Below are positions 20,461-55,934 of a DNA stretch of 64,000 bases, in pieces. Within the stretch, counting starts at the first letter, position 1. Each line of letters begins with the position of its first letter. The notes below the pieces were generated by a model. The model was not told the DNA's origin. It was given only the letters and a program-made list of their open reading frames with translations, and made no database searches. The stretch is from Nocardia sp. NBC_00565 (lineage in GTDB: Bacteria; Actinomycetota; Actinomycetes; Mycobacteriales; Mycobacteriaceae): the NCBI RefSeq assembly GCF_036345915.1, contig NZ_CP107785.1:2294001-2358000 (forward strand), written 5' to 3'. Position numbers and translations under genes: made by a program.

Positions 20461-20651
20461 GCCAGTCGAACAGCAATGTCAGACCACTGGGGCCGATTCT
20501 GCGATTAATGCCGGAAGTATGATTGTCGACAGGGAAGCACGCTATTGACGAGAGTGTCAGATTCTCTCTAGGGTGGGTTCGATCAGGTGGCTGCGACGGG
20601 TCTGACGACGGCGTCGCACGGACACGGGACGTGACTACGTTGAGGGAACAG

Positions 20652-26332: not shown

Positions 26333-27196
26333 ATGTCCGTGGCAGATCGGCTGGTTGTCTGCGCTAGTCACAGTCCGGGAATGATGCGTGACGTGGAGCA
26401 TGTGCTCGGCCGCTCGTTCCGGTCCGGTCTCGAGCAGGTGCGCGGCATGGTCGAGGAATTCGATCCCGATGTCATAGTGCTCTTCGGCGGTGACCATCGT
26501 CGAACATTCCGGCAGGTGGTTCCATCCTTCGCGGTCGCGTTGAGCGCTGGCATCATGGCCGAGGCCGGGCGCGAGGCCGGTGAGTTGCGCGTCCCCGCGG
26601 ATCGCGCGCGGGCCCTCGCGGATCATCTGCTGGGGTCGGGATTCGATATCACGGTATGCCGCGATATCGAATTGGATCACGCGTTCGCGCAACCGCTGCA
26701 TGATCTGACGGCCGGGCTCGGCGTGTATCCGGTGATCCCCGTGGCGATCAATTGCGCGACCGCGCCGCTGCCGCGGCCGGAACGCGTCCTCGAATTCGGC
26801 GCCGAGGTCGGCCGCTTCCTCGACGGTATCGGCGATCGCGTGCTGGTCATCGGCACCGGGGGACTCTCGCATTCCCCGCCGAGCCTCGAGGTCGATACGC
26901 ACGATATGAGCGATGCGGAGCGTGCGCGAATCATCGCCGCGGGCTATGCCGCGGCCGAGCAGAAGATCAAGCCCGAATGGGACAAAGCCTTCCTCGACGC
27001 GCTGTCGTCCTGGGACGCAACAAGTTTAACCGAGCTCGCCACCGTCGCGCACGAGCAGGCCGGTGCGGGCGCGAACGAAGTCCGGACCTGGCTGGCCGCC
27101 GGAGCGGCCGGTGGGGGCAAGCCGTTCGAATGCATTGCCTACGAACCGGTGCAGAAATGGATCACCGGTATGGGGGTGGCGGTTTCCGGTCGCTGA
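26333..27196 (+). CDS. Class III extradiol ring-cleavage dioxygenase (MhpB-like)
   Basis: A 287-residue LigB-superfamily dioxygenase close in pattern to 2,3-dihydroxyphenylpropionate 1,2-dioxygenase MhpB. Shared elements are ASHSPGM at the N-terminus, LFGGDH, LDH116-AFAQPL and GTGGLSH180-SPP. H116 and H180 match the positions of catalytic histidines in the E. coli enzyme. It cleaves a catechol-type ring next to the hydroxyls using Fe(II) and O2. AGGAGG precedes the ATG at 26333; the longer frame begins inside the SDR gene. This makes the operon an aromatic-ring pathway at some stage, although the catechol itself is unknown. Confidence 0.92.
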   Translation: MSVADRLVVCASHSPGMMRDVEHVLGRSFRSGLEQVRGMVEEFDPDVIVLFGGDHRRTFRQVVPSFAVALSAGIMAEAGREAGELRVPADRARALADHLLGSGFDITVCRDIELDHAFAQPLHDLTAGLGVYPVIPVAINCATAPLPRPERVLEFGAEVGRFLDGIGDRVLVIGTGGLSHSPPSLEVDTHDMSDAERARIIAAGYAAAEQKIKPEWDKAFLDALSSWDATSLTELATVAHEQAGAGANEVRTWLAAGAAGGGKPFECIAYEPVQKWITGMGVAVSGR

Positions 27197-42093: not shown

Positions 42094-42882
42094 CTATCCC
42101 AATGTCGCTTTGACGCCTACGGCGGTGACGACGACGTTCACCGCGAACAATGCCATGAACGCGTAGACGACTGTTTCGTTGACCGCGTCGCCGACGCCTT
42201 TGGGTCCGCCCTTGACGGTGAGACCCATATGGCTGGCAACGAGCGCGGCGATGAGCCCGAACAAGCCGGCTTTGATCTCCGAGATCATCACTTCGGGTAC
42301 TCCGGTGACCAGCGTCAGGCTCGAGACGTAGGCGCCGGGTGTCACATTCTGCACGTACACCGAGAACAGGAATCCCCCGACGAGGCCGATGGTGATAACC
42401 AGTCCGTTCAATAACAGCGCGACAATGGTCGAGGCGAATACTCGCGGAACCACGAGCCGGTGTATCGGATCAATGCCGAGGACCTTGATCGCATCGATCT
42501 CTTCGCGAATCGTCCGAGAGCCGAGATCGGCACATATTGCCGTGGCACCCGCGCCGGCGACGATCAGGACGGTGACCAGCGGCCCGACCTGAGTTACCGC
42601 GCCCAGTCCCGCGCCGGCCCCGGACAAATCGGCGGCACCGAATTCGACGAGCAGAATATTGAGCGTAAAAATCACCAGCACGGTGAAGGGGATGGCGACC
42701 AGCAGGGTCGGGACCAAGGCCACCCGCACCAGGAACCAGCCCTGCTCGAAGAACTCGCCCCACTGGAACGGCCGTTTCGTTGCCGCTCGGGCGGTGGCGG
42801 CGCACATGGAGAAGAATCCACCGACAGCCCGCACCGGTACTTCGATTTTGTTCAGCACCGGCGTATCGAGTTTCAACTGCAC
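42094..42882 (-). CDS. yrbEA: YrbE/MlaE family ABC permease, A subunit
   Basis: A 262-residue MlaE/YrbE permease, first gene of the second mce operon. The conserved loop ICADLGSRTIREEIDAIKVLGIDP and the end GLTVKGGPKGVGDAVNETVV are clear. AAGGAGG lies eight bases before the GTG start. The upstream 600 bases are mostly non-coding and contain palindromic elements. One of these matches the repeated TGAC-N6-GTCA motif found at other promoters in this window, so regulation by the tandem TetR protein encoded upstream is likely. Confidence 0.94.
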   Translation of the reverse strand: MQLKLDTPVLNKIEVPVRAVGGFFSMCAATARAATKRPFQWGEFFEQGWFLVRVALVPTLLVAIPFTVLVIFTLNILLVEFGAADLSGAGAGLGAVTQVGPLVTVLIVAGAGATAICADLGSRTIREEIDAIKVLGIDPIHRLVVPRVFASTIVALLLNGLVITIGLVGGFLFSVYVQNVTPGAYVSSLTLVTGVPEVMISEIKAGLFGLIAALVASHMGLTVKGGPKGVGDAVNETVVYAFMALFAVNVVVTAVGVKATLG

Positions 42883-42885
42883 GGT

Positions 42886-43487
42886 GACCTCCTTATTCGG
42901 TTCCCGGCTGGTGAAGGGCGCCGGCCCTGACGCCCAAGGCGGCGAGTACGTCCGGTTTTCGGCTATTTCGGATCACGTAGTTCGGTCTGGTGCGGCAATC
43001 AGCGCAACGTGCCGGGGAGATGTCGTCGGCGGGAGGGGATCGTGCTGCGACTCCCGAGCACCGCAGGGTCGCTGCTGGGCGGCCGGAGTATGCCGGGCTG
43101 CTCGATGTTCGGGTTCGACCCGCCGGGTGAGGGTGATAGCACACGAGAGGACGCGGCGGCTGTAGCCGCTGGCCGTGTCGCTGTGCCCGCCATCACATTC
43201 ATCTCGGCAACTAAGATGACATAAACGTCAGAAGAGGTCAATAGGTTGAATAGATTATCTGAATAAACCTAATGGCTACCCGGCAAATTTCAGGCGCCGC
43301 GCCACTCATGAATAAATAGTTATATGATTATGCTATCAAAAGTTGCTCGAGCGGCGGGAGGTCATGGCGGAGCTCCCTGAGACCGGGGAAACTGGATGAA
43401 CAGTCCCTTCGTCATCGGACGTGCACGAGGCGCGGGCTCACCTGGACGCCGCCGCGATGGGCACGCTGGCTTGGCTCGCACAGTCGT
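42886..43487. promoter_or_regulatory. Promoter/operator region of the second mce operon
   Basis: No gene is seen in these 600 bases. The part from about 43200 to 43345 is markedly A/T-rich. It contains TGAC-ATAAAC-GTCA-GAAG (43217-43234), a copy of the motif shared with promoters at 47, 48, 52 and 56 kb. Close by is an inverted repeat with arms TAGGTT (43242-43247) and AACCTA (43266-43271). These are the likely operator and promoter for the minus-strand mce genes, with a leader of about 300 bases. Confidence 0.6.
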
Positions 43488-43556
43488 TCAGCGGGAGACG
43501 AGGCCGCGGCTGATCACCAGATGTTGAATCTGGTTGGTGCCCTCGAAGATCAGCGT
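43488..43556 (-). pseudogene. Acyl-CoA dehydrogenase C-terminal remnant
   Basis: Directly after the tandem TetR gene, a minus-strand frame encodes TLIFEGTNQIQHLVISRGL-VSR and a stop. This is the typical C-terminus of acyl-CoA dehydrogenases (IYEGTNQIQ..VIAR). Only 22 residues remain, with no start and no room for the rest. An acyl-CoA dehydrogenase gene was therefore lost here by a deletion that ended at the tetR stop codon. Confidence 0.8.
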
Positions 43557-44918
43557 TCAGTCTTCCGGCGCGAGAGTCGCGGTCCGGTCCCGGCTGTGGG
43601 AAAAGAAGCCGCGTTCGATGATTGTGGCCATCAGATCCACCACCTGGTCGTGAGTCAGCGGGGTCTCGATCTCCTGGGATGCGCGCGCCAGTCGCTCCAA
43701 GATCGCTCGAAAGACCAGGACCGCACCGATCGGGTCGAAGGGGAAGCCCGGCCGGTCGACGGTGCTGAGGTAGTCGAGGATGGCGGAGTCCGTCATGGCT
43801 TCGCCGTATACGCCCAGGTCCGCGACCAGCGATCGCTCGGCGGTGCGTTCGGTCCACACGTCGATCGATCCGCCGAACTGTGTCTCGAACTGCACGAAGC
43901 TGGACAGCCACGCGCGCAACGTCGCGCGATCGGTACTCGGTGGGGCGAGTTGGCGGAGTTCGTCGTCCAGCACGAGAGCCCGTGCGGCTGCCTCCGCACA
44001 GACTGTGAGAAGCAAATCCTGTTTCTCGTTGAAGTACTTGTAGAACGTTCCGCGTGCGTAACCGGCGGCGGCGACGATGTCGTCAACATTGGCACGGTAG
44101 TAGCCGCGGGCGGCGAACTGGGTTGCTCCGGCGGCGACCAGACGTTCGACGGTCTGGCGTGCCCTCTTGCTGATACCGGAGGTGCGCTCTTCGATCGACA
44201 ATCCCGATGCCGCCGGCGGGTGCGGGATACTGATGACCTGTGCGGAGTCGACGCGCAAGGGCAGGGTGTCGAACACACTCGGGGGAGTGTCCGGGAAGAA
44301 CATCAGTTGTAGAAAGACCGAGAGTGCGTCGACGACGGATTCGATGCTTCGGCCGTGCGCGCGGTCGGTGTGCAGGTAGAGATTCACCCGGTGGACAACG
44401 GCCATCATCGCCATGGCGGCGGACTCGGGGTCGAGTCCGCCGAGATCCGTATTCGCCAGGCGGCCCGCGAGTTGGTGCTGGTATCGACCGACGAATCGAT
44501 CGATCTCCGGTTGCACGACGCTCTCCGTCGCGGCGACATTGGCCCACTGCACGAACATCGTCGAGTAGCGCTCGAAGACCCAGCTCCACTCGCCGAGCCA
44601 CCAGTTCAAGTTGTCGAAACCCGTGGGCGTCGGGCCCAGCGCGCCGATACGCCGGGTGACGCGCAGCAGCGCGCTGCCGCATTCGTCCATCAGCTCCAGG
44701 AAGATCTCGTCTTTGCCTGGAAAATACTGATAGAGGGTAGCCCGGGAGACACCTGCTTCCTTGGCGATGGCATCCACCGAGGTGTTGAAGAAGCCGAGTT
44801 CGCCGAAGAGCCTGAGGGACACATCGACGATCTTGCGTCGTGTGTTGGTGCCCCGGCTGCCGATCTCGGGGCTGGACGGACCATAACTGGCCCGGCGCAG
44901 ACTTCGGTTCTCTGACAT
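43557..44918 (-). CDS. Tandem two-domain TetR regulator (Mce3R-like architecture)
   Basis: A 453-residue protein made of two complete TetR units in one chain. The first helix-turn-helix is at about residues 27-73 (SLRLFGELGFFNTSVDAIAK ... LYQYFPGKDEI), and the second at about 253-302 (GATQFAARGYYRANVDDIVA ... FYKYFNEKQDL). Each is followed by a helical ligand-binding domain. M. tuberculosis Mce3R, the repressor of the mce3 operon and of lipid-oxidation genes, has this rare layout. The gene lies upstream of the yrbE/mce operon on the same strand. It should bind asymmetric or doubled sites without needing a dimer. A GACTA-CTT-TAGTC palindrome just before its start may be an autoregulatory site. 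Confidence 0.92.
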   Translation of the reverse strand: MSENRSLRRASYGPSSPEIGSRGTNTRRKIVDVSLRLFGELGFFNTSVDAIAKEAGVSRATLYQYFPGKDEIFLELMDECGSALLRVTRRIGALGPTPTGFDNLNWWLGEWSWVFERYSTMFVQWANVAATESVVQPEIDRFVGRYQHQLAGRLANTDLGGLDPESAAMAMMAVVHRVNLYLHTDRAHGRSIESVVDALSVFLQLMFFPDTPPSVFDTLPLRVDSAQVISIPHPPAASGLSIEERTSGISKRARQTVERLVAAGATQFAARGYYRANVDDIVAAAGYARGTFYKYFNEKQDLLLTVCAEAAARALVLDDELRQLAPPSTDRATLRAWLSSFVQFETQFGGSIDVWTERTAERSLVADLGVYGEAMTDSAILDYLSTVDRPGFPFDPIGAVLVFRAILERLARASQEIETPLTHDQVVDLMATIIERGFFSHSRDRTATLAPED

Positions 44919-44952
44919 CAGTGACTACTTTAGTCGATGGTCCAGGTCCGGC

Positions 44953-45399
44953 TCACGTGTGCGTGACCGGCGAGTTGTATCCCTCGTCGAGCAAGAAGTC
45001 AGCGGAGCCGGCGAGGGCGGTTCCGCCTGTCTGACGGGCGCAGACGAGGTCGACGGTCACCAGCCGGCCGCTGCCTGTCGGCGTGCTCGACACCACGGTT
45101 CCGGTGCAGGTGAGGGTGTCGCCGGGCCAGACCTGCTCCCGGAACCGGATGCCGAATCGGCGGAGGTTCGCGGCGCCCAGCCAGTCGGTGGCAAATGTCG
45201 CGAGCAACGCGCCCTGATGCATTCCCTGAGAAAAGACCGAGGGAAATCCGGCGGCGGTGGCCATGGTGTCGTCGTAGTGCATCGGGTTGAGGTCGCCGGA
45301 CGCGCCGGAGTAGCGCACGAACATCTGCCGGGTCAACGGTCCGAAGGTGCGCGGTTCCGCGGTGGTGCCCACCTCGAGTGCGATGGCGTGTGTGGTCAC
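44953..45399 (-). CDS. MaoC-like (R)-specific enoyl-CoA hydratase
   Basis: A 148-residue hotdog hydratase. The catalytic hydratase-2 motif YSGASGD36-LNPMH41-YDD followed by AGFPSVFSQGMHQGALLA is present. It would add water to a trans-2-enoyl-CoA to give the (R)-3-hydroxyacyl-CoA. Its start overlaps the end of a second hotdog gene by four bases. Such pairs commonly form heterodimeric hydratases, as in ChsH1/ChsH2 and HadAB-type enzymes. It is the last gene of a kinase, hydratase, hydratase unit. Confidence 0.9.
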   Translation of the reverse strand: MTTHAIALEVGTTAEPRTFGPLTRQMFVRYSGASGDLNPMHYDDTMATAAGFPSVFSQGMHQGALLATFATDWLGAANLRRFGIRFREQVWPGDTLTCTGTVVSSTPTGSGRLVTVDLVCARQTGGTALAGSADFLLDEGYNSPVTHT

Positions 45400-45833
45400 G
45401 AAATCTTCTCCTTGGCGGCGGTCTCGATGAAGGTGGCACGCGCTTCCGCGACGAGTTCACCGTCGGGCGTGCGGAATTCGGTGGCTACCACCGCAAATCG
45501 CATGACGCCGCCGCGCTTACCCGGCTTCTCGAATCGGTCGAGGACTTTTTCCTGTGCTGTCAGGTGGTCGCCTACCTGGGGCAGCGTGCCATGGAAGATG
45601 TACTCCTGCTCTCCGTGCAGGAGTCGCTTGCGGTCGAATCCGACATTGACGCGAACACCGGCAGGCGCCCATTGTCCGGCGGTAACCAGAAAGGTCGGCG
45701 GAATGATTGCCTCAGCTCCGCTGTACGCGGGATTCTGCGACTGCATGGCGTTCGCGAACTCACGAATCTTTCCGCGTTCGATGATCACCTCCCACGGGGT
45801 GCCCACCGTTCCGATCGGTGCGGGTTCGTTCAT
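45396..45833 (-). CDS. MaoC-like/FAS1-type dehydratase partner subunit
   Basis: A 145-residue hotdog protein of the type that forms the non-catalytic half of heterodimeric MaoC hydratases: GKIREFANAMQSQNPAYSG, IIPPTFLVTAGQW and RLLHGEQEYIFHGTLPQVGD are typical. It lacks the D-x4-H pair of the active half, which is supplied by the overlapping downstream gene. AAGGAG lies nine bases before the ATG at 45833; the long upstream frame lies in the kinase gene. Together the two should hydrate a bulky enoyl-CoA. Confidence 0.88.
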   Translation of the reverse strand: MNEPAPIGTVGTPWEVIIERGKIREFANAMQSQNPAYSGAEAIIPPTFLVTAGQWAPAGVRVNVGFDRKRLLHGEQEYIFHGTLPQVGDHLTAQEKVLDRFEKPGKRGGVMRFAVVATEFRTPDGELVAEARATFIETAAKEKIS

Positions 45834-46936
45834 CGCGTAGTACTCCTTTGTTCGATTCGTTCGTCGAGGTACCGCCGGATCAGCTCGGCCGCTGCCGTCG
45901 GATAGGTGTGGGCGATCGCGGGTTCCAGCCCGTCCCGGATGAGCAGGACGGCAAGCTGGTTGGTGATCAGCGTCAGCACGAAAGCGGCGAGCAGCGTGTA
46001 GTAGCTGATATCGCCGGTCGGCCGGCCACCGAGCTGCTCGTAGCGGCGCACGATGTCGCGGTCGTCGGGCACCCCGTCGGGGCGGTGCAGGCCGATGCTT
46101 TCGCAGAGGAATCGCTCGAACATGAGCCACCAGCCGAGGTCGATATCGGGAGGCCCGGTGGTCGCGCCTTCCCAGTCGAACAGCGCGGCGACGGATAGGT
46201 CTTCGGCGAAGGACATGTTTCCCACCCGGGCATCTCCCCAGACGATGCCCTCGGCCGTCGTGGCAGGCATGTTCTCGACCAACTCGGCAAATGCCGCGGC
46301 GAGCAATTCGGGGTCGACCAGAAGAGTGTCCCGGCTGGTGCTGTACCAGCGACGCAGACTATCCAGGTAGCGCGCTATCGCGGAGCCTGGGCCGGGCGCG
46401 GCCAGTGCCCCGACATCGCCCGGGTCGCTGATGCGATGCAATGCGACCAAGGTACGTAACGCGTTGTCATACAGCAGCTCTCGCTCGTCGGCCGCGAGAT
46501 CCGCGGTCCACCCCGCTTTGTGCCAGCTCGGCACGTCCGAGGGTATGCGTCCGTCCACGCGGTCCATCAGATAGAAGGGCGCACCGAGCACCTCGGGATC
46601 GGGTTCCTGGGCGACGACATTCGGCATCGGCACGCCGCTATGTCGTCCGAGTCGGCGGATGACCTCGGCCTGCCGGATGGCGTCGGGCGTCATGAAGAGT
46701 TGATGGTCGGGCGCCTGCATCCGTAGCACGAGATCGCGGTGGGCCCGTTGTCCGTTCGGGCTCGTCCAGGACGCGGTAAAGAACACCGTTTTCCCGGAGT
46801 ATCCGGCGTTCGGCGCGGAGAAGTCCGAGATCTGGAAGTCTTCGTGGCCTCGCGGTGCGATGTGCGCGGCGGCCCAGCTCGTGAGCGTGCCACGCGCGTC
46901 CTCGTCGAGCCTGCCTCGCTGGGCGGTGTAACGCAC
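45830..46936 (-). CDS. APH-type phosphotransferase (ACAD10/11- and LvaA-like kinase fold)
   Basis: A 368-residue protein of the aminoglycoside phosphotransferase superfamily. The catalytic loop reads VWGD235-ARVGNM and the metal-binding segment FDWEGATTGPPDIDLGWW. Tryptophan replaces the usual histidine before the GD. Catabolic relatives phosphorylate hydroxyacyl-CoA intermediates, as LvaA does in levulinate breakdown; antibiotic resistance is not implied. I place the start at the GTG at 46936 because the ATG at 46990 lies inside the shared operator element. The gene overlaps the hydratase genes, so it probably acts on the same acyl-CoA. Confidence 0.82.
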   Translation of the reverse strand: MRYTAQRGRLDEDARGTLTSWAAAHIAPRGHEDFQISDFSAPNAGYSGKTVFFTASWTSPNGQRAHRDLVLRMQAPDHQLFMTPDAIRQAEVIRRLGRHSGVPMPNVVAQEPDPEVLGAPFYLMDRVDGRIPSDVPSWHKAGWTADLAADERELLYDNALRTLVALHRISDPGDVGALAAPGPGSAIARYLDSLRRWYSTSRDTLLVDPELLAAAFAELVENMPATTAEGIVWGDARVGNMSFAEDLSVAALFDWEGATTGPPDIDLGWWLMFERFLCESIGLHRPDGVPDDRDIVRRYEQLGGRPTGDISYYTLLAAFVLTLITNQLAVLLIRDGLEPAIAHTYPTAAAELIRRYLDERIEQRSTTR

Positions 46937-46981
46937 TTGAACCCACTTTCTCGGAAAACGTGTGGCCTCGATCGAACCAAA

Positions 46982-47002
46982 AGTGACCATTACTGTCAGA
47001 AT
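46982..47002. promoter_or_regulatory. Shared TGAC/GTCA operator motif, copy at divergent kinase/LLM promoter
   Basis: The element reads AG-TGAC, seven bases, GTCA-GAAT. It lies between the divergent APH-type kinase and LLM oxidoreductase genes. On the plus strand CAGAAT fits a -10 box (xANNNT) exactly six bases before the ATG of the LLM gene, implying a leaderless mRNA with the operator over the core promoter. Confidence 0.65.
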
Positions 47003-47008
47003 ATAGCT

Positions 47009-48061
47009 ATGAGTGAGCAAAAATCCAGGGATGTGAAGTCGTTGGGAAGGCTGGGTGCGTATGTGATCCCCGGCCGCGTGGCAGATCCGGGGCCGGCGCT
47101 GACGCAGGCGGTAGAAGCCGAACGGCTCGGGCTGGGCACCGTCTGGATCAGCGAGCGGTGGGGGGCCAAGGACTTCGGCGTCCTCGTCGGCGCGCTCAGT
47201 CAGGTCACCAGCGGGATCGACATCGCGGCGGGCGTGACTCACCTGAACTCGCGACATCCGGCCCTGCTCGCATCGATGGCGATGACCGCGCAAGCGCTGT
47301 CGGGTGGCCGCCTGATTCTCGGTGTCGGCCGGTCGGTCGCCGCCATGTGGCGGTCGGTCGGGCTGCCGGTGCCGACGAACCAGTCGCTGGCCGACTCCGC
47401 CGACATCTTCCGTCGGCTCTGCCGCGGGGAGAAGGTCAGCTACCGCGGGCCCGCGGGCGACTATCCCGCATTGCGCCTCAACGATGTGCCTGATCAGCCG
47501 GTGCCCCCGCTCGTTCTCGCGGCCATCGGACCGCGCGGTCTCGAGTTGGCGGGCCGCCACTTCGACGGTGCGATCCTGCATCCCTTCCTGACTCGAGAGG
47601 CGGTCGCCCGTTCGGTCGTTCGGATCCGCGACGCGGCTCGAGCCGCTGGTCGGGCACCCGATGCCGTGCGGATCTATGCGACCGTTGTCGTTGCCTCGCA
47701 ACTGGATCCGGCCGCCGAAGCGGCGACGGTCGCGGGCCGGGCGGTGAGCTATTACCAGATTCCGGGGCTCGGCGAGCAGCTTGCGCGGGTCAACGGCTGG
47801 GATCCGGGTCGGCTCGAAATCCTGCGCGCCCATCCCCAACTCGCCGGCGTGCGAGGTTCGGCGGACTCGGTTCGGACGACCGCGCAGCTGGCCGAGGCCG
47901 CGACCGCGCTGCCCACGCGGTGGATCACCGAAGCCGCGGCGGTGGGCACCGCGACAGAGTGCCGTGCGACGTTCGACCGATTCCTCGACGCGGGAGCTGA
48001 CGAATTGATCCTGCACGGCAGCACACCGGATCAGCTGGCGTCGGTCGTCGCGTCGAAGTAG
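47009..48061 (+). CDS. LLM-class (luciferase-like, F420-dependent type) oxidoreductase
   Basis: A 350-residue TIM-barrel protein of the luciferase-like family. Typical elements are TVWISERWGAKDFGVLVGALSQVTSGIDIAAGVTHLN split over strands 2-4, MAMTAQALSGGRLILGVG, and GPRGLELAGRHFDGAILHPFL. In actinomycetes most such proteins use F420 or FMN. No ribosome binding site precedes the ATG; the -10-like CAGAAT is six bases away, so translation is probably leaderless. The TGAC/GTCA element overlaps this promoter. It is a single gene, with another promoter copy following its end. The substrate is unknown. Confidence 0.9.
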   Translation: MSEQKSRDVKSLGRLGAYVIPGRVADPGPALTQAVEAERLGLGTVWISERWGAKDFGVLVGALSQVTSGIDIAAGVTHLNSRHPALLASMAMTAQALSGGRLILGVGRSVAAMWRSVGLPVPTNQSLADSADIFRRLCRGEKVSYRGPAGDYPALRLNDVPDQPVPPLVLAAIGPRGLELAGRHFDGAILHPFLTREAVARSVVRIRDAARAAGRAPDAVRIYATVVVASQLDPAAEAATVAGRAVSYYQIPGLGEQLARVNGWDPGRLEILRAHPQLAGVRGSADSVRTTAQLAEAATALPTRWITEAAAVGTATECRATFDRFLDAGADELILHGSTPDQLASVVASK

Positions 48062-48075
48062 AAGCTTGCGCCATA

Positions 48076-48095
48076 AGTGACATTACTGCCAGAAT
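48076..48095. promoter_or_regulatory. Shared TGAC/GCCA operator motif, copy before aldehyde dehydrogenase
   Basis: The element is AG-TGAC-ATTACT-GCCA-GAAT, nearly the same string as the copy 1.1 kb upstream. The CAGAAT end lies seven bases before the ATG at 48103, again placing a -10-like box at leaderless distance. Confidence 0.65.
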
Positions 48096-48102
48096 CTTGG
48101 GC

Positions 48103-49605
48103 ATGCGGGATGCTCGGCAACTCGCTCCGGCGTCAGTGCCGGCCACAGTTATGGACAGAGAGGCAGCGGTGCGCGCATACGAAGGGACCTACGTCGCGGG
48201 CAAGTGGCGTCCGACGGACGGACCGCGCATCGACGTGGTGTCGCCGGCCTCCGGCGCGCTGCTCGGCTGCGTGACCGAGGCGTCCGGTGACGATGTCGCG
48301 GCGGCCGTTGTGGCGGCCCGTGCGGCCTTGAACAGCGAGCCATGGGCGGCGACCACACCCACCGACCGAGCCGCGTTGTTGAACGGCTTGGCCGCTGGAC
48401 TGAAGCGCCGATCCGCCGAGTTCGCCGACCTGCTCTCCGCGGAGGTGGGCTCGCCGCGCAGCTTCGCGTCGTTCGGCCAGGTCGGATTTGCTATTGGAGT
48501 GTTCCGCTCACACGCGCGCATGCTGGAGCGTTTCGATTTCGAGGAGACTCGGCCGTCGGGCGCCGGGGGCGAGGTCCTGGTACGTCGTGTTCCGGTTGGT
48601 GTGGTCGGTGCGATCGTGCCGTGGAATGTCCCGCTGTTCGCTGCCGCGCTGAAGCTCGCACCAGCTCTCTCGGCGGGGTGCACCATCGTACTGAAGCCCG
48701 CGCCCGACGCTCCGCTGGGTCTGTCGATGCTGACCGAGGTGGTCGAGGAGGCAGGCCTGCCACCGGGGGTGATCAACATCGTCTCCGGCGGGGTGCAGAC
48801 GGGCGAGGCGCTGGTATCGCATCCGGAGGTGGACAAGGTGAGTTTCACCGGGTCCACGGCGGCGGGCAAGCGCATCGGCGCGGTCTGTGCCGCCGCGGTC
48901 CGGCGGTGTGCGCTGGAACTGGGCGGCAAGTCGCCGGCGATCGTCCTCGACGACACCCCGTTCGACGCCGAGACAATCGGTGGATTGGTCACCGGAGTGA
49001 TGGCCAATAACGGTGAGGTATGTGCGGCGCAGACGCGCATTCTGATCCCGGCCACGCGCTACGAGGAATTTCTGGATGTGTTCGGCGCGGCCGTGCGCGC
49101 GCTGCGGATCGGTGATCCGGCAGACCTGTCCACCGATGTCGGCCCGCTGATCAACCAGGCCGCGCTGCAGCGGGTCGAAGCCATGGTGTCGGCGGCGGTC
49201 GCGGCGGGCGCGCGGGTCGTCGCCGGCGGCGCCCGTCCCGATGGATTCGAGACCGGCTGGTATTACGCGCCGACCGTGCTGGCGGATGTCGACAACCAGA
49301 CGGCCATCGCCAGGAACGAAGTCTTCGGACCGGTGGCAGTGGTAATTCCCTACGCCGATGACGACGATGCCGTGCGTATCGCGAACGATTCCGACTACGG
49401 CCTCGCGGCGGCGGTCTGGTCCGCCGATCGAGCGCGCGCCGCTCGGGTGGCAGTGCGGCTGCGGGTCGGATCGGTCTCGATCAATTCGCCGGCCCCCGTG
49501 GATTTCGGCAGCCCGTTCGGCGGCTTCAAAGAGTCGGGAATCGGCAGAGAAGGCGGACCGGAAGGTATCGCGGGATTCCTGGAATCCCAGTCGATCATCT
49601 GCTGA
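48103..49605 (+). CDS. NAD(P)-dependent aldehyde dehydrogenase
   Basis: A 500-residue aldehyde dehydrogenase. The general base is E272 in CALELGGKSPA and the nucleophile is C307 in NGEVCAAQTR; PWNVPLFAAALKLAPALSAG and EVFGPVAVV are also typical. The ATG at 48103 is chosen as a leaderless start seven bases behind a -10-like CAGAAT; an ATG 16 codons later is an alternative. It is followed by an alcohol dehydrogenase, so the two may oxidise an alcohol to an acid in sequence. Both are probably under the shared TGAC/GCCA operator. Confidence 0.93.
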   Translation: MRDARQLAPASVPATVMDREAAVRAYEGTYVAGKWRPTDGPRIDVVSPASGALLGCVTEASGDDVAAAVVAARAALNSEPWAATTPTDRAALLNGLAAGLKRRSAEFADLLSAEVGSPRSFASFGQVGFAIGVFRSHARMLERFDFEETRPSGAGGEVLVRRVPVGVVGAIVPWNVPLFAAALKLAPALSAGCTIVLKPAPDAPLGLSMLTEVVEEAGLPPGVINIVSGGVQTGEALVSHPEVDKVSFTGSTAAGKRIGAVCAAAVRRCALELGGKSPAIVLDDTPFDAETIGGLVTGVMANNGEVCAAQTRILIPATRYEEFLDVFGAAVRALRIGDPADLSTDVGPLINQAALQRVEAMVSAAVAAGARVVAGGARPDGFETGWYYAPTVLADVDNQTAIARNEVFGPVAVVIPYADDDDAVRIANDSDYGLAAAVWSADRARAARVAVRLRVGSVSINSPAPVDFGSPFGGFKESGIGREGGPEGIAGFLESQSIIC

Positions 49606-49662
49606 CCGCCGACAGAACCATATGCCGTTGTCGATCCGACGGCGGTAGAAGAGAGGAACGTA

Positions 49663-50805
49663 ATGGAGACCACTGCCGCCGTGCTCTGGGAGCGCAACTC
49701 ACCGTGGTCGGTGGAGACAATCGAGCTGGATCCGCCGAAGGACGAGGAGGTGCTGGTAGAGCTGCACGCCTCGGGCATGTGCCATTCGGATGAGCACATC
49801 GTCACCGGCGATATGCCGTTCCAGCTGCCCTGTATCGGCGGCCACGAGGGTGCGGGCGTAGTGAAACAGGTCGGCTCGAGCGTTTCGTGGCTGAAGGAAG
49901 GCGATCACGTCGTGTTCGGCTTCATTCCGTCGTGCGGGCGCTGCCCGTCCTGCGCGACCGGCCACCAGAGTCTCTGCGATCTCGGTGCCAAGATTTACAG
50001 TGGCAGGCAGATTTTCGACGACACCGCCCGCCACCACGCCAGGGGGAAGGATCTCGCGCTCGCGTGCGGAGTCGGCTCCTTCGCCCATCACACGGTCGTG
50101 CACGAGGCCAGCTGCATCAAGATCGAGCCGCATCACCCGCTGGACCGGGCCTGCCTGCTCGGCTGCGGATTCGTCACCGGCTGGGGATCGGCTGTCTACG
50201 CCGCCGGCATCCGGCCGGGGCACAACGTCGTGGTTGCCGGTGTCGGTGGCATCGGTGCGGCCGCGGTCCAGGGCGCCCGGTTGTCCGGAGCGCGGACGAT
50301 CGTCGCGATCGATCCGTCCGAGTACAAGCGCGAGCAAGCGTTGAAGATGGGTGCCACTCACGTTGCGGCGTCCTGGGATGAGGCGCCCGGTGTCGTCAGC
50401 GAGGCGACCTGGAACCGCGGTGCCGACCGGTTCATCTGCGCCATGGGCGTGGGTGAGGGTCGCCTGGTCAAGAAGGCCTTGGCGATGACCGCCAAACGCG
50501 GCGAGCTCATCGTGACGAACATCCATCCGATGGCGGAGAACGAGATCTCGGTCAACATGATGGATTTGACCCTGACCGAGAAGCGGATCATCGGAACCCT
50601 GTACGGCTCGGCGAATCCGCGAGCCGATATCCCGAAGATCCTCGAGCTCTGGAGCGCCGGGCAAGTCGACCTCGATTCGGTGGTGACCAGGACCTATCCG
50701 CTGGAGAAGATCAACGACGGGTACGACGACATGCGCGGCGGCCGGAACCTCCGTGGCGTGCTCCGATACCCGGCTGCCGACGCACTGTCGCGGTCGGCTG
50801 AATAG
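49663..50805 (+). CDS. Zinc alcohol dehydrogenase, NDMA-dependent (mycofactocin-linked) type
   Basis: A 380-residue medium-chain alcohol dehydrogenase. The catalytic zinc ligands are C40 and H61-E62; the structural zinc set is C91, C94, C97 and C105. VVVAGVGGIGAAAVQGARLSGA binds NAD. The overall pattern (VLWE.N.PWSVE.IELDPPK, ASGMCHSDEH, IPSCGRCPSCATGHQSLCD, LTEKRIIGTLYGSANPR) matches the NDMA-dependent methanol/alcohol dehydrogenase group, whose tightly bound NADH is recycled through mycofactocin. GAGAGGAACGTA precedes the ATG. It forms an operon with the aldehyde dehydrogenase and a membrane protein. Confidence 0.92.
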   Translation: METTAAVLWERNSPWSVETIELDPPKDEEVLVELHASGMCHSDEHIVTGDMPFQLPCIGGHEGAGVVKQVGSSVSWLKEGDHVVFGFIPSCGRCPSCATGHQSLCDLGAKIYSGRQIFDDTARHHARGKDLALACGVGSFAHHTVVHEASCIKIEPHHPLDRACLLGCGFVTGWGSAVYAAGIRPGHNVVVAGVGGIGAAAVQGARLSGARTIVAIDPSEYKREQALKMGATHVAASWDEAPGVVSEATWNRGADRFICAMGVGEGRLVKKALAMTAKRGELIVTNIHPMAENEISVNMMDLTLTEKRIIGTLYGSANPRADIPKILELWSAGQVDLDSVVTRTYPLEKINDGYDDMRGGRNLRGVLRYPAADALSRSAE

Positions 50806-50814
50806 GAGCTCATC

Positions 50815-51609
50815 ATGGAATGGGACATGCCGGTGCACTCGAGTCCTACGGGGCCGTCCGCGGTGTTCACGATCGGTTGTTTGGTGATCCTCGTCGGCCT
50901 GATCGTGTGGTGGGCCCTGTCGGGCGAATCCAAACGTGGCCCGGCGCTTCCGCTGTTCATGCTGGGAACCGCGATCTCGGCGGTAGCGGTGGAACCGGTT
51001 TTCGACAACACGCTGCTCTATTGGTATCCCCCCGACAACGGACTGGGCGTCTTCGCGGCCTACGGCCGCACGGTGCCATGGTTCGTCCCGCTCGGGTACG
51101 CGTGGTTCTTCGGTGGAATCGCCTACGTCGTGTGGCGGTATCTGCAACTCGGTGTCGACCGGCGGCAGGTGTGGTGGACATTCGCCGTTGTCGCGCTGAT
51201 CGACGCGCTCGCGACCTCGCTGGCCGGCTGGCTCGACTTGAGCGGGTTCTACGGTCCACAGCCGTTCATGTTCGGCGGCGTGAACGTGTGGTTCGCCTTC
51301 GCGGACGCGACCGGCGTACTGGTCGGTGCCACCATTCTGTTTGTGCTTACGCCGCTGTTGTCGGGCCGAAACTGGTTGTGGCTCCTGGTTATTCCGTCGA
51401 TCTCCTACGGTGCGGTGCTCGGCGGAGTCTCCGGGCCGGTGACCCTCGGCCTGCATTCGGACTGGCCGACGCCGGTGCGTTGGCTGGCGGGTGCGGTGAC
51501 GATAGGTCTGTGCTGCGCCGTCATACACGGATGCTCGTATCTCACCGCCGGGGCACGTCCCACCGAGTTGTGGGCTGAGAAGGGCAGCCGGGAATCGGCG
51601 TCCTCGTAG
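50815..51609 (+). CDS. Polytopic membrane protein, AveC-like (tentative)
   Basis: A 264-residue integral membrane protein with about seven hydrophobic helices and short loops. Conserved-looking loop motifs are EPVFDNTLLYWYPP after helix 2 and VPWFVPLGYAWFFGG. The layout resembles actinobacterial proteins annotated as AveC-like spirocyclases, and a second similar protein is encoded near 60 kb, but the match is by pattern only. GGAGCTC precedes the ATG, nine bases after the alcohol dehydrogenase. It may act on or transport the lipophilic substrate at the membrane, and no catalytic residues can be named. Confidence 0.6.
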   Translation: MEWDMPVHSSPTGPSAVFTIGCLVILVGLIVWWALSGESKRGPALPLFMLGTAISAVAVEPVFDNTLLYWYPPDNGLGVFAAYGRTVPWFVPLGYAWFFGGIAYVVWRYLQLGVDRRQVWWTFAVVALIDALATSLAGWLDLSGFYGPQPFMFGGVNVWFAFADATGVLVGATILFVLTPLLSGRNWLWLLVIPSISYGAVLGGVSGPVTLGLHSDWPTPVRWLAGAVTIGLCCAVIHGCSYLTAGARPTELWAEKGSRESASS

Positions 51610-51630
51610 CGAGTCGAACGGCGGGGCGAG

Positions 51631-51667
51631 GGACAGTGGGGAGCGCTCGGCGCGTTGCCCACTGTCC
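51631..51667. terminator. Bidirectional terminator between convergent genes
   Basis: Perfect 10-bp arms GGACAGTGGG and CCCACTGTCC enclose a 17-base loop that can itself pair in part. It lies in the 66-base gap between the membrane protein gene and the convergent SDR gene. Confidence 0.65.
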
Positions 51668-51675
51668 GGCTCAGG

Positions 51676-52467
51676 TCAGAAGTTCGTGCCGCCGTCGATA
51701 TTGATCAGCGCACCGGTGAGGAAGCCGGCCCGGGGCGAGAGCAGGAACGCGATCAGCTCGCCTACCTCGTGCGGCTGTCCCGGTCGGCCCAATGCCGCCG
51801 TGAAGCCCCATTCTTCGACCATGACTCGTTCGAGGGCTTCGTCGTGCGGATAGCCGCGCTCCTTCGCGATGTAATCCCGGACCGCACGCAGCGTCTCGGT
51901 CTCCACGGCGCCAGGGCAGACACAATTCGCTCGGACGCCATGTTTTCCGTACTCCTTCGCGATCCCTTTGGTGAAGACGGCGACGGCGCTCTTGAGACCG
52001 GCGAACGGCAGTCGCGCGATCTCGGGTGATCGAATCGAATAGGCGGCCGTGGTGACGATAGTGCCTTTGGTTGAGACCAGGTGGGGCAGTGCGGCTTCGA
52101 TCGTTCGGGTCGTGCCGAGCAGGACGTCGCGGAACGCGGCGGTCCACGTCTCATCGCTTGCCGAAATCGGCTCGTGCCCGGTCGTGCCCGTGGTGATCGC
52201 GACACCATCGAGTCGCCCGAGGAATTCGACTGCCTCCTCGACCGAGCGCGCCGCGCCGCCGTGCTTGCCGACATCGAAGGACAGGCTGGTCGCGCGTGCG
52301 GCGCCGGCCTCGAGGATTTCGGCGGCGGCCTTGCTGCCTCGTTCCTGATCTCGGCCGACAACGACGACCGCTGCTCCGTCTTCGGCCAGCGATCGTGCGG
52401 CGGCAAGCCCGATCCCTGCGGTTCCACCGACGACGAGATAGCCCTTTTCGCGAACTGACAGATCCAT
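51676..52467 (-). CDS. SDR-family protein with altered catalytic tyrosine
   Basis: A 263-residue short-chain dehydrogenase. The cofactor loop GGTAGIGLAAARSLAEDGA and the ending GFLTGALINIDGGTNF are normal. In the catalytic stretch the family Y-x3-K motif reads F-AGL-K (LPFAGLKSAVAVF), so the catalytic tyrosine is phenylalanine; a nearby tyrosine in TTAAYS might take over. It may be a weak or binding-only enzyme, or use a different proton donor. The ATG at 52467 follows AGAGGGA; a start nine codons upstream is possible. The TGAC/GTCA element lies 30-50 bases upstream, so it is probably a member of the same regulon. Confidence 0.85.
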   Translation of the reverse strand: MDLSVREKGYLVVGGTAGIGLAAARSLAEDGAAVVVVGRDQERGSKAAAEILEAGAARATSLSFDVGKHGGAARSVEEAVEFLGRLDGVAITTGTTGHEPISASDETWTAAFRDVLLGTTRTIEAALPHLVSTKGTIVTTAAYSIRSPEIARLPFAGLKSAVAVFTKGIAKEYGKHGVRANCVCPGAVETETLRAVRDYIAKERGYPHDEALERVMVEEWGFTAALGRPGQPHEVGELIAFLLSPRAGFLTGALINIDGGTNF

Positions 52468-52496
52468 GAACCAGATTCCCTCTCGCAATGACACGT

Positions 52497-52516
52497 AGTG
52501 ACGGTGTTGTCAGAAT
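52497..52516. promoter_or_regulatory. Shared TGAC/GTCA operator motif, copy before SDR gene
   Basis: The element reads AG-TGAC-GGTGTT-GTCA-GAAT in the gap between the divergent SDR and amidohydrolase genes. A second, weaker right half-site (GTGTCAGAAG) occurs at about 52632-52641, nearer the amidohydrolase. Confidence 0.6.
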
Positions 52517-52710
52517 ATGGGTTTCGAGGGTTCCTGTATAGGTCGGCAGGAGCTATCTAAAGGCGATCAGATCTGGCATCCAACCACGTAGAGACCACAT
52601 GTTGACTGTTGTGACTGCGATCACTAGAGTACACGGTGTCAGAAGTTGATCCTGGATCCGATCGTGTCGACGCACTCCGGGGTTATCGTTTTTAAGCCAA
52701 GGGAGGCGTT

Positions 52711-53925
52711 GTGCCGCTGCAAGATTCCATGCAGATGATTTCGGTGGATGATCATTTGATCGAGCCACCGTCGGTGTGGGTTGATCGGTTGCCGAAGAAG
52801 TTCGTCGAGGACGGCCCGCGCATCGTCGAGATGGATATGTCCCAGAGCGGTGGCGATGAGGAACTGTCGAGGGTGCTTCTCGACGCGGCGCGCGCCGGCA
52901 GCACGGGCCAGAAGCGGCTCGCCGAGGTCTGGGTGTACGAGGGCCGGGTGTATCCGAATATCGGATTGAACGCGGTGGCGGGGAAGAAGCCGCAGGAATA
53001 CGGCATGGATCCGACGCGGTATTCCGACATGCTGCCGGGCTGCTACGACCCGGTGGCCCGGGTCGCCGATATGGATGTGGACGGTGTCCAAGCGGCACTG
53101 TGTTTCCCGTCGTTCCCCCGCTTCTCTGGCACCGTCTTCCTGGAGGGTAAGGACAAGGAGCTGGCGTTGCTGTCGGTGCGGGCGTGGAATGACTTCCACC
53201 TCGATGAGTGGGCGGCCGCCGCGCCGGATCGATTCATTCCGCTGATGATCCTGCCGCTGTGGGACCCGGTGGCCGCGGCCGCCGAGATCTACCGCTGCGC
53301 CGCGAAGGGCGCCAAGGCGATCTCGTTCCCGGAATGTGCTGTGCCGCTTGGGTTGCCGTCGTTCTACACCGACCACTGGGATCCCGTCTTCGCCGCCGCG
53401 CAGGAGACGGGCATGCCGCTGTGCATGCACTTCGGGTCGTCGGGCCGTGCGCCGATCACCTCGCCCGAGGCGCCGATGGCGGTGATGATCTCGCTGTTCG
53501 GCACGAACTCGATGTACGCGACGGCCGATCTGTTGTTCTCTCCGGTCTTCTACAAGTTCCCGAATCTGAAGGTGGCCCTGTCCGAGGGCGGCGTTGGTTG
53601 GGTGCCATATCTGCTCGAGCGGATCGACCAGGTGTGGGAGAAGCACCGCTGGTACCAGAACATCAACAAGGAAGTGCGCCCGTCGGACCTGTTCCGGGAG
53701 CACATCTGGGGCTGCTTCATCGACGACTCCGAGGGCATCGTGCGGCGGGACGCGATCGGTGTCGACAACATTCTGTGGGAGTGCGACTACCCGCACTCGG
53801 ATTCGAACTGGCCCAACAGCCGGGAGTTCACCGCGAAGCTACTGCAGGACGTTCCGGACGCGGAGGCCCACAAGATCGTGGAGTTGAACGCGCGCAAGCT
53901 GTACAACTTCCCCCGGGTCGGCTGA
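52711..53925 (+). CDS. Amidohydrolase family (TIM-barrel) metal-dependent hydrolase
   Basis: A 404-residue amidohydrolase-2 family protein. The N-terminal MISVDDHLIEPPSVWVDRLP metal motif (D-D-H), a middle MCLHFGSSG-like stretch, and the C-terminal LWECDYPHSDSNWPNS with the metal aspartate are visible. In actinomycetes many such proteins sit in steroid and aromatic clusters, as decarboxylases or hydrolases of ring-cleavage products. GGGAGG precedes the GTG start. It begins the plus-strand group amidohydrolase, small helical protein, P450, ferredoxin. The exact reaction is unknown. Confidence 0.9.
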   Translation: MPLQDSMQMISVDDHLIEPPSVWVDRLPKKFVEDGPRIVEMDMSQSGGDEELSRVLLDAARAGSTGQKRLAEVWVYEGRVYPNIGLNAVAGKKPQEYGMDPTRYSDMLPGCYDPVARVADMDVDGVQAALCFPSFPRFSGTVFLEGKDKELALLSVRAWNDFHLDEWAAAAPDRFIPLMILPLWDPVAAAAEIYRCAAKGAKAISFPECAVPLGLPSFYTDHWDPVFAAAQETGMPLCMHFGSSGRAPITSPEAPMAVMISLFGTNSMYATADLLFSPVFYKFPNLKVALSEGGVGWVPYLLERIDQVWEKHRWYQNINKEVRPSDLFREHIWGCFIDDSEGIVRRDAIGVDNILWECDYPHSDSNWPNSREFTAKLLQDVPDAEAHKIVELNARKLYNFPRVG

Positions 53926-53938
53926 GAGGCGGATCGTC

Positions 53939-54154
53939 GTGGCTGGCAAGGATATCGACGCGGCAGACTGGATCGATCAGGATCTGCTCACCAGGGACGA
54001 AGCGGGCGAACGTCTGGACGAGGAGATCGTTCGGGTCAGGGCCCGGCTACGGGATCTCGAGTCAGGTCCCGGGGATGATCCCGCGGTCGCGTCATCGGTG
54101 GCAATGGTCTCTCGTCGCCTCGCGGCGATGGAGTCGATTCGCAACTCGCTCTAG
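53939..54154 (+). CDS. Small helical coiled-coil protein
   Basis: A 71-residue protein beginning with GTG 13 bases after the amidohydrolase. The middle (LTRDEAGERLDEEIVRVRARLRDLE) and the end (VASSVAMVSRRLAAMESIRNSL) form two charged amphipathic helices. It has no signal, membrane segment or cysteine. I do not recognise a family. Its position between the amidohydrolase and P450 suggests a subunit or chaperone role for the hydrolase, which is only a guess. Codon usage and spacing support expression. Confidence 0.65.
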   Translation: MAGKDIDAADWIDQDLLTRDEAGERLDEEIVRVRARLRDLESGPGDDPAVASSVAMVSRRLAAMESIRNSL

Positions 54155-54261
54155 GCTTCCGGGCCACCGTGCCGGGTCTTGAGGGCTGAATTATTTAGCT
54201 ATACAGTTTGCTAGCGGCCGGTTGCCATCGGTCTACGAGCGGGAAGTAACAAGGGTCAGTG

Positions 54262-55452
54262 ATGACAACCGAAGCATCAGGTGTGATCAATACGGATAAC
54301 CTGCCGATGGCGCAGGACCGTGACGGTTCCTGGCGCACGATGCGCCGGCATCCGTTGGTCGAGGTCGAAGGCGGTTACGCGGTGACCCATCGCGATCTTG
54401 TCGAGACCGTACTCAAGCAGCCGGGGATCTTCTCCTCGAAGAAGGCCTTCGATGTGCTGGCCAGCCCGATTCCGCTGGTTCCGGTGGCCTTCGATCCGCC
54501 GGAGCAGACCCGCTACCGGCGGATTCTGCAGCCGTTCTTCAGTCCGCGGGTCATCAAGCCGATGGAGCCCGAGCTCCGCAGACAGGCGATCGAGCTCATC
54601 GAGCCGATCGCGAAGCGGGGCAGCTGTGACTTCGTTGCCGAGGTCGGTGGTGTCTTCCCGGTTCAGGTCTTCCTGACCTTGTTCGGACTTCCGCTGGAGA
54701 TGCGCGATCAGTTCGTCGAATGGAAGGACGCGGTTCTCGGTCTCACCAGCGCCAGCGGCCAGACCTCGGTCGGCGCCGCCGCCGACGAGGGGCTGCAGAA
54801 AGCGGCCGAGCTGTTCATGTACCTGTCGGAGCTGATCCAGCAGCGGCGCGGTCAGCCAGGTGACGATGTGCTCAGCCGGGTGCTTGCGCTGGAGGGCGAG
54901 GATGCCTTGAGCGACGAGGAGGCCATCGGATTGTGCTTCCTCTTCGTGCTGGCCGGCCTCGACACCGTGATGGATGCGCTCGGTTTCGGTATGCAACGCC
55001 TGGCCGAGAACCCGGACAAGCGTCAGCAGATCCTGGATGATCCCGCGCTGATTCCGGCCGCGACCGAGGAATTGCTGCGGCTGGATCCGCCTGCGCCGTT
55101 CATTCCGCGCGTGACTGCCGAGGAGACGGTGCTGGACGGGCAGTTGCTGCCGGCCGGAACCCGGGTGACCGCCTATCTGGCCGCCGCGAACCGGGATGAG
55201 GACCGGCATCTCGACCCGTACGCCGTCGACTTCCATCGCGGCGAGAACCCGCACATCAGTTTCGGCATGGGCGTGCACCGCTGCCTGGGATCGCATCTCG
55301 CGCGGCTGGAGATGCACATCGTCTACGAAGAGTGGCACCGGCTCATCCCGCACTACCGCATCACCTCCGGCACAACTCCCCAAGTCCATTGGCCGCGTGG
55401 GACAACGGGGCTCGAGTCGCTGCACCTTACTTTTGACGGGAAGGACACCTGA
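54262..55452 (+). CDS. Cytochrome P450
   Basis: A 396-residue soluble P450. The heme-binding motif is FGMGVHRC341-LGSHLARLEM, the I-helix reads VLAGLDTVMD (acid-Thr pair present as DT), and the K-helix ExxR is in TEELLRLDPP. ATG at 54262 follows AAGGGT; a GTG one codon earlier is an alternative. A [3Fe-4S]-type ferredoxin gene overlaps its stop and should be the redox partner, fed by an FprB-type reductase. Neighbouring genes point to oxidation of a lipophilic ring or side chain. The subfamily cannot be fixed from motifs alone. Confidence 0.93.
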   Translation: MTTEASGVINTDNLPMAQDRDGSWRTMRRHPLVEVEGGYAVTHRDLVETVLKQPGIFSSKKAFDVLASPIPLVPVAFDPPEQTRYRRILQPFFSPRVIKPMEPELRRQAIELIEPIAKRGSCDFVAEVGGVFPVQVFLTLFGLPLEMRDQFVEWKDAVLGLTSASGQTSVGAAADEGLQKAAELFMYLSELIQQRRGQPGDDVLSRVLALEGEDALSDEEAIGLCFLFVLAGLDTVMDALGFGMQRLAENPDKRQQILDDPALIPAATEELLRLDPPAPFIPRVTAEETVLDGQLLPAGTRVTAYLAAANRDEDRHLDPYAVDFHRGENPHISFGMGVHRCLGSHLARLEMHIVYEEWHRLIPHYRITSGTTPQVHWPRGTTGLESLHLTFDGKDT

Positions 55453-55646
55453 TGAAGGTCTCGATTGATCACAGTGTGTGCACCGGCCATGGCATGTGCT
55501 ACATGAGCGCGCCGGATGTCTTCACCGACGATGAGCAGGGGTACGGACAGGTCATCGGGGATCGGGTGGTGGCCGACGAACTGGCCGAGTCGGCTCGCCA
55601 CGGCGCGAACAGCTGCCCGGAGCGAGCGATCACTGTCGAGGACTGA
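55452..55646 (+). CDS. [3Fe-4S]/[4Fe-4S] ferredoxin of P450 type
   Basis: A 64-residue ferredoxin. Cysteines C10, C16 and C55 (C-x5-C ... CP) are those of the single-cluster [3Fe-4S] ferredoxins that serve actinobacterial P450s; the position of the second cysteine of a [4Fe-4S] motif is occupied by His (TGHGMC). The ATG overlaps the P450 stop by one base, so the pair is co-translated. A strong hairpin follows 50 bases downstream. Confidence 0.93.
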   Translation: MKVSIDHSVCTGHGMCYMSAPDVFTDDEQGYGQVIGDRVVADELAESARHGANSCPERAITVED

Positions 55647-55699
55647 TCGTCGCTCGAAGTGGCGGGCGTCGCCATGCCGGCGGATGGCATTCTGTTGCT

Positions 55700-55728
55700 C
55701 CGCCGCTCGCAGTACATGCGAGCGGCGG
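55700..55728. terminator. Hairpin terminator after P450-ferredoxin operon
   Basis: An 11-bp perfect stem (CCGCCGCTCGC with GCGAGCGGCGG) closes a seven-base loop and is followed by a T-containing stretch. It ends the amidohydrolase-P450-ferredoxin unit and separates it from the next P450 operon. Confidence 0.7.
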
Positions 55729-55836
55729 GGCTGTTTCTCGTTGTCGGCGGGTGTGGTGAAAGCCGGACAGCAGGTACCGGGCATGTGGTGCCACGTGAAT
55801 CGCGCTCGGTGAACAGGGATCAGCTGCCGTGACTTT

Positions 55837-55934
55837 AGTGACACTGATGGCAAGTGTTGGCCATAGTCAAGATCTAAAATTAGGAAAACGCGCAGGTGAA
55901 GCCAGTTGCAAATTAGTGACACTAGTGCCAGAAT
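55837..55934. promoter_or_regulatory. Two copies of shared TGAC operator motif before second P450 operon
   Basis: Copy one (55837-55856) reads AG-TGAC-ACTGAT-GGCA-AGTG; copy two (55915-55934) reads AG-TGAC-ACTAGT-GCCA-GAAT. Both start with TTAGTGACACT and are 78 bp apart. They lie in a 400-base gap with no gene and probably form the control region of the P450, hydratase, DUF35, SDR operon. Confidence 0.6.

Follow-up and report, generated by a model that had tools for sequence, protein, structure and literature searches.

A conserved asymmetric element as the predicted operator of a tandem TetR repressor family in two catabolic islands of Nocardia sp. NBC_00565

KstR and KstR2, the TetR regulators of cholesterol catabolism, are single-domain dimers that control steroid or lipid catabolic genes through short palindromic operators. 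The tandem TetR regulator considered here, encoded in a 64,000-nt stretch of Nocardia sp. NBC_00565 (NZ_CP107785.1, positions 2,294,001-2,358,000, forward strand; this whole stretch is called the window), resembles them in family, in its predicted control of catabolic genes and in the shortness of its putative operators, although the operators differ. With Mce3R of Mycobacterium tuberculosis (Rv1963c; PDB 9b7y), to which it is about 20% identical, it shares a double TetR_N architecture in a single chain of 400-450 aa. Work on Mce3R names Arg53 and Lys262 as DNA-contact residues and Arg53 as needed for binding (PMC11667970). We describe a repeated element of the window, TGAC-N6-GTCA-GAA, which we judge with a probability of roughly 0.85 to be the operator of a tandem TetR repressor family, two paralogs of which would share its code over two gene islands. 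Among the matches listed in a literature search there was no description of this family or of its operator.

The original prediction had placed six copies of the element in the window (Table 1), and every one was present at its position. With no mismatches allowed, RTGACN6GYCAGAAK matched four times (43216, 48077, 52498 and 55916, all on the + strand) against 0.02 expected, and none of 100 shuffles of the window reached four perfect matches. Allowing two mismatches gave 10 matches against 8.7 expected, an ordinary count, so the signal is confined to near-perfect copies. As had also been proposed, the copies fall in promoter gaps between called genes; at 46982 our simple codon-usage gene caller ran over the gap, with the kinase gene beginning at 46936 and the LLM oxidoreductase gene at 47009.

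The element had been described as local, and this did not hold for the 9.71-Mb chromosome, where the relaxed form RRTGACRNNNNYGYYAGAW matched 14 times and the same pattern read backwards matched 0 times. Four matches lie in the window, one just beyond it (window coordinate 67889), one at 2.440 Mb and eight at 3.674-3.729 Mb, where a paralog of the regulator marks a second island at a distance of 1.4 Mb. The stricter form AGTGACN6GYCAGAAT has five perfect matches, three in the window and two in one other region. Searching the genome with the regulator returned this single full-length paralog (3718130-3719452, 57% identity), and the next-best match (E 2.6e-14) covered half of the protein. The helix-turn-helix (HTH) cores SRATLYQYFPGKD and ARGTFYKYF are both identical in the two paralogs, and the two regulators would therefore be expected to cross-regulate both islands. 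The site beside the paralog, AATGACACAAACGTCAGAAA, is the counterpart of GATGACATAAACGTCAGAAG at 43215, and the operator ahead of the aldehyde dehydrogenase (ALDH) gene is the same 20-mer in both islands. Many genes have a partner in the other island, at about 56-90% identity; they encode the ALDH, an alcohol dehydrogenase (ADH), two hydratases, the kinase, acyl-CoA dehydrogenases, thiolases, a Rieske oxygenase and a ring-cleavage dioxygenase.

Conservation of the element was followed in relatives of the regulator, of which 435 among 7995 candidates scored reached E<=1e-10. In named genomes 122 stretches matched, 99 were confirmed and 80 of the 99 were kept, giving 76 distinct loci (cited by L labels) from Nocardia, Rhodococcus, Williamsia, Gordonia, Tomitella, Nocardioides, Mycobacterium, Streptomyces, Frankia, Pseudonocardia and others. 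The scoring matrix was built from 12 sites of the genome itself, so scores there are partly circular, and the 76 loci lie outside the training set. At >=17 bits the matrix found 159 sites in these loci as opposed to one in the reversed sequences, with at least one site in 55 of the 76; at >=20 bits there were 144 sites, or 120 once duplicates were removed. Sites are still present where the regulator has fallen to 37% identity (Subtercola, L112). A genome scan for matches scattered inside genes, proposed as a test of the idea, gave the opposite picture: 13 of the 14 chromosomal matches lie in the two islands, and only two of the 120 distinct sites (both islands included) fall inside called open reading frames (ORFs), both in L112.

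The element also accompanies the regulator across genomes. Using the pattern RRTGACRNNNNTGYYAGAW, with the regulator called at E<=1e-60 in the same-genus sample, five of 148 genomes of the same genus carry the regulator, with 9, 4, 4, 5 and 4 matches, and the 143 regulator-less genomes hold 13 matches spread over 12 genomes. Across 201 genomes of the family, a sample that overlaps the first in some genomes including the window's own, the 10 with the regulator have three to nine matches apiece (47 in total) and the 191 without it have 28 matches in 27 genomes, with a maximum of two. Separation is complete in both samples: at least three matches where the regulator is present, at most two where it is absent. 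Footprint and co-occurrence strongly support the link between regulator and motif made in the original prediction, raising it from a guess to strong comparative evidence that the sites are very probably recognized by a single protein, the tandem TetR encoded at 43557-44918.

As co-occurrence is unable to separate linked genes, another protein travelling with the tandem TetR might bind the element, although we consider this very improbable. A single-domain TetR is conserved in 17 loci, but those listed are all mycobacterial; its gene lies some kilobases downstream of the tandem TetR gene, for example at 17125-17715 in L062. One further TetR-like ORF occurs in the second island, around 3687722-3688048, and two more TetR genes lie in the window but outside its island, at 7850-8488 and 12021-12632; for these three, no counterpart of >=40% identity over >=120 residues was found in any of the 76 loci or in the other island. 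This survey covered TetR genes alone, among the called genes of the window region at 26-80 kb, the second island at 3655-3735 kb and the 76 loci, with these three TetRs checked separately.

The letters around the sites indicate that the element is embedded in promoters. Among the distinct sites that end in AAT, 51 of 59 have TTG beginning exactly nine bases ahead, compared with none of the 61 other sites. The AAT-ending sites thus read as predicted promoters with a TTGNNN -35, a 17-bp spacer and a CAGAAT -10, usually preceded by TG as in an extended -10. At 21 sites a called start codon lies 6-9 nt downstream, the spacing of leaderless transcripts. The terminal T is present in all 35 sites that face a nearby gene and in nine of 33 that face only away (Fisher 2.6e-11), in a comparison that uses 35 + 33 of the 120 sites, leaves out 52 that mostly lie between two nearby starts, and counts sites whose shared descent makes them non-independent. 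Of the 68 sites that have starts nearby on both sides, 48 end in T. Sites behind the regulator gene show the mirror-image geometry, with TTG seven bases ahead of the reversed site and CATCTT or CATTTT 17 bp on, in the window, the second island and nine of 11 named loci; the -10 is CATGTT in L054 and CACTTT in L070, and the exceptions are L051, with TTG one base farther, and L110, without TTG. Given this geometry, the operator would lie between -35 and -10 in both classes, and repression by promoter occlusion is therefore predicted; the promoter claim covers AAT-ending sites and those behind the regulator, not the remaining reverse-oriented sites.

The same promoter letters could mean that the element is a conserved promoter only, perhaps for a special sigma factor, with no operator, and the -35 at a 17-bp spacer and the 21 closely placed start codons would fit such a case. 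We regard it as very unlikely, however, as the TGAC half falls inside the spacer, the element is enriched in genomes that carry the tandem TetR, and sites in the opposite orientation lose the TTG and mostly the terminal T but retain TGAC-N6-GTCAGA, the common core of all orientations, around which the outer bases are asymmetric. A sigma-factor element is likewise disfavoured in that the centres of TGAC and GTCA are 10 bp apart, closer than a -35/-10 pair would allow, and in that reverse-oriented sites drop the -10 letters and keep the rest.

The regulon had been called Mce3R-like, and the regulator does resemble Mce3R in tandem architecture and predicted fold, but membership of the Mce3R family is not supported. 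The predicted model matches the Mce3R structure over residues 17-440, and Mce3R is its best structural match; together with the mce operon that follows the gene in the window, this could suggest that the regulator is an Mce3R ortholog and the sites the Mce3R regulon of a Nocardia. That reading is exceedingly unlikely. Four Mce3R orthologs are 68-88% alike mutually and 18-25% like the tandem TetR family, in which Mce3R Arg53 is replaced by Gln64 (invariant in 20 aligned members) and Lys262 is retained as K299. In four 8-kb Mce3R loci no matrix score exceeded 13.8 bits (best 9.7-13.8; the published Mce3R operator was not aligned directly), and four genomes with clear Mce3R orthologs had neither this regulator nor any motif match. 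Membership is rejected on sequence and the contact residue, with the absence of the motif in support, and comparison thus places this tandem TetR family, and its predicted regulon, apart from Mce3R. Weaker matches to a 71-residue piece of Mce3R (E<=1e-12), unsorted by family, raise the total to 143 of the 201 genomes. Models of other known regulators also scored below their cut-offs: the NCBIfam KstR model NF033703 gave 37 bits against 280, and the best NCBIfam match, reached through the HTHs, was the mycofactocin regulator MftR (TIGR03968), at 83 bits against 224.9, whose model spans 190 positions. One Gordonia relative is labelled putative MftR by its source.

A copy of the element had been assigned to the mce operon leader; it is present, but 332 nt separate it from the first mce gene downstream, and its orientation is away from that gene. 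Genes of the mce type are near only one of the 76 relatives, which also speaks against an Mce3R regulon. Just two cases have an mce operon directly behind the regulator, the window and N. jiangxiensis (L044); the latter preserves the promoter letters and left half before the operon, but its right half lacks one base. The gene directly after the regulator is a short-chain dehydrogenase/reductase (SDR) in the second island and in 11 of the 76 named loci, and a search between the window regulator and the mce operon found no SDR remnant (best E 2.3). Control of mce by the regulator is plausible in this genome and does not appear to be a family trait.

From the motif and its conservation, its co-occurrence with the regulator, the promoter geometry and the predicted fold, all established computationally, we infer how such an operator would work. 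A single chain carries two HTHs that resemble each other without being identical, and each is predicted to read one half-site of an almost palindromic yet asymmetric operator, (A/G)(A/G)TGAC-N6-G(T/C)(C/T)AGA(A/T). Nested between -35 and -10, with the right half (CAGAAT) itself serving as the putative -10 in one orientation, the operator would place bound repressor where it blocks RNA polymerase, and release may come from a pathway metabolite, perhaps an acyl-CoA. The two paralogous repressors, with their identical recognition-helix cores, would share this code over the islands 1.4 Mb apart, which encode enzymes for P450, alcohol and aldehyde oxidation, for beta-oxidation and for ring cleavage and, in one of them, the mce importer. 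At slightly less than even odds we would extend this to a second actinobacteria-wide tandem TetR family, in which fusion of the HTHs might permit an asymmetric, spacer-nested operator, either half could supply the -10 (CAGAAT versus CATCTT/CATTTT), orientation would encode promoter direction, and the islands, joined through the two paralogs, would form a single regulon that serves a lipophilic ring-bearing substrate. The analysis supplies a precise predicted operator, a target list and a promoter geometry for a large unnamed regulator family and sets that family apart from Mce3R, as whose relatives mce-linked tandem TetRs may get classed by resemblance; the family offers a natural comparison for the reading of non-palindromic DNA by tandem TetRs.

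The regulator gene comes last in an apparent operon ordered kinase, hydratase, MaoC and TetR, whose divergent promoter with the LLM gene holds the spacer-7 form of the site. Counting the window and second island, 20 sequences have the gene pair, and 14 of them carry this form in the gap; it was not found in L048, L051, L054, L105 or L106, and L115 has an irregular match only. Because it recurs at the orthologous divergent promoter, the spacer-7 form is conserved rather than a chance variant, and because the regulator ends the apparent operon, the site at 46982-47002 is likely autoregulatory. The kinase and FAS1_DH-like hydratase, separate genes at 45396-46936, correspond to a single fusion protein of 518 aa in the second island (G000:C1 3716083-3717639), and this fusion suggests that the two act together.

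Ortholog counts across the loci take the best match at >=60% coverage, so some may be distant paralogs. On this basis a site lies just upstream of the match to the ALDH in 37 of 43 loci, to the CYP124/125-like P450 in 20 of 31, to the hydratase of the regulator's operon in 24 of 47, to the MhpB-like extradiol dioxygenase in 16 of 28 and to the SDR in 10 of 14. Besides the enzymes of Table 1, a 2-oxo-hept-4-ene-1,7-dioate hydratase and a 3-carboxyethylcatechol-dioxygenase-type enzyme score above their NCBIfam cut-offs, and Pfam adds Rieske oxygenase, HpcH/HpaI aldolase, CoA-transferases, thiolases and acyl-CoA dehydrogenases. A likely pathway, judged from these assignments, would be terminal oxidation of a chain by P450, ADH and ALDH, followed by beta-oxidation and then meta-cleavage of a ring. 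The predicted co-regulated set so outlined (P450, F420-dependent LLM, ADH, ALDH and ring cleavage) should help a substrate search.

Table 1. Predicted sites and genes of the window, in window coordinates
Feature	Position	Strand	Remarks
Candidate site ATTGACGAGAGTGTCAGATT	20544..20563	+	19.8 bits, under the strong class; 88 nt ahead of ChsH2-like OB-fold gene at 20652
YrbE/MlaE permease	42094..42882	-	First mce operon gene (Pfam)
Predicted operator GATGACATAAACGTCAGAAG	43215..43234	+	On - strand flanked by TTGACC and CATCTT, 17-bp spacer
Tandem TetR regulator, 453 aa	43557..44918	-	Predicted to bind the element; Pfam TetR_N in two stretches (two HTHs)
MaoC-like hydratase	44953..45399	-	Regulator's apparent operon (Pfam)
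HadA/FAS1_DH-like hydratase	45396..45833	-	Counterpart fused to kinase in second island
APH-family kinase-like protein	45830..46936	-	First gene of regulator's apparent operon (Pfam)
Predicted operator, spacer-7 form AGTGACCATTACTGTCAGAAT	46982..47002	+	Divergent promoter, LLM (+) / kinase-TetR operon (-); LLM ATG 6 nt downstream
F420-dependent LLM oxidoreductase	47009..48061	+	TIGR03857, above cut-off
Predicted operator AGTGACATTACTGCCAGAAT	48076..48095	+	Ahead of ALDH and NDMA-dependent ADH genes
Aldehyde dehydrogenase	48169..49605	+	In-frame start farther upstream possible
NDMA-dependent alcohol dehydrogenase	49663..50805	+	TIGR03989, above cut-off
SDR	51676..52467	-	Domain match
Predicted operator AGTGACGGTGTTGTCAGAAT	52497..52516	+	Between SDR (-) and amidohydrolase (+); six of seven loci have a site upstream of their SDR match
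Amidohydrolase family 2	52711..53925	+	Domain match
Second copy, weak	55837..55856	+	13.7 bits; 78 bp upstream of 55915 copy
Predicted operator AGTGACACTAGTGCCAGAAT	55915..55934	+	Ahead of CYP124/125-like P450, enoyl-CoA hydratase, OB-fold protein and SDR genes
Cytochrome P450	56053..57309	+	Closest solved relatives: a CYP125 entry (CYP125MRCA) and CYP124

Several observations weigh against the element being the operator of this family. No site of >=17 bits was found in 21 of the 76 loci, comprising 10 from Frankia/Parafrankia/Frankiales, six from Pseudonocardia, three Nocardia contigs (L042, L043 and L045, in which the spacer-7 site is nevertheless present) and two others; in the 16 Frankia/Parafrankia/Frankiales or Pseudonocardia loci the operator is drifted or lost. 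Control loci (166,798 bases) gave three sites of >=17 bits, two of which were suspected members already (L020 is window 20544 and L146 is 2439887), and the sites counted throughout are related by descent and so not independent. Among the window copies, only that at 55915 has TTG exactly nine bases ahead; at 48076 it stands one base farther, and 52497 has ATGACA in place of TTGNNN. The MhpB-like ring-cleavage gene of the window (26333-27196) is without a site, unlike the loci matching it that are counted above, and HpaH-, HpcH- and Rieske-type genes (hydratase, aldolase and oxygenase) in the islands have no strong site of their own.

The start-to-start distance of the copies at 55837 and 55915 equals that of the Mce3R sites, which are reported to be 25 bp long and 53 bp apart (PMC11667970). 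Looping through this pair is noted but not claimed, the upstream copy being weak.

Elsewhere, the 19-mer AATGACATCATTGCTAGAA occurs once per genome in the regulator-less G227, G240, G263, G274, G302 and G212 (genus g27; slightly altered in G212) and may represent some other conserved element. Window coordinates 62.9-80 kb (L025) and G000:C1 3662-3678 kb share long paired stretches at 60-90% identity, including an AMP ligase-enoyl-CoA hydratase fusion, the Rieske oxygenase and thiolases, which may reflect either an old segmental duplication or two acquisitions. For the P450 of the second island only an 82-aa C-terminal remnant was called (G000:C1 3684054-3684302), which keeps an upstream predicted operator (3684592) and the downstream hydratase and OB-fold genes. 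Past the window, candidate sites lie at 2375186 (24.8 bits, 17 kb beyond) and 2439887 (22.6 bits, 82 kb beyond), the latter, at 2.440 Mb, preceding a fused branched-chain-type ABC transporter gene.

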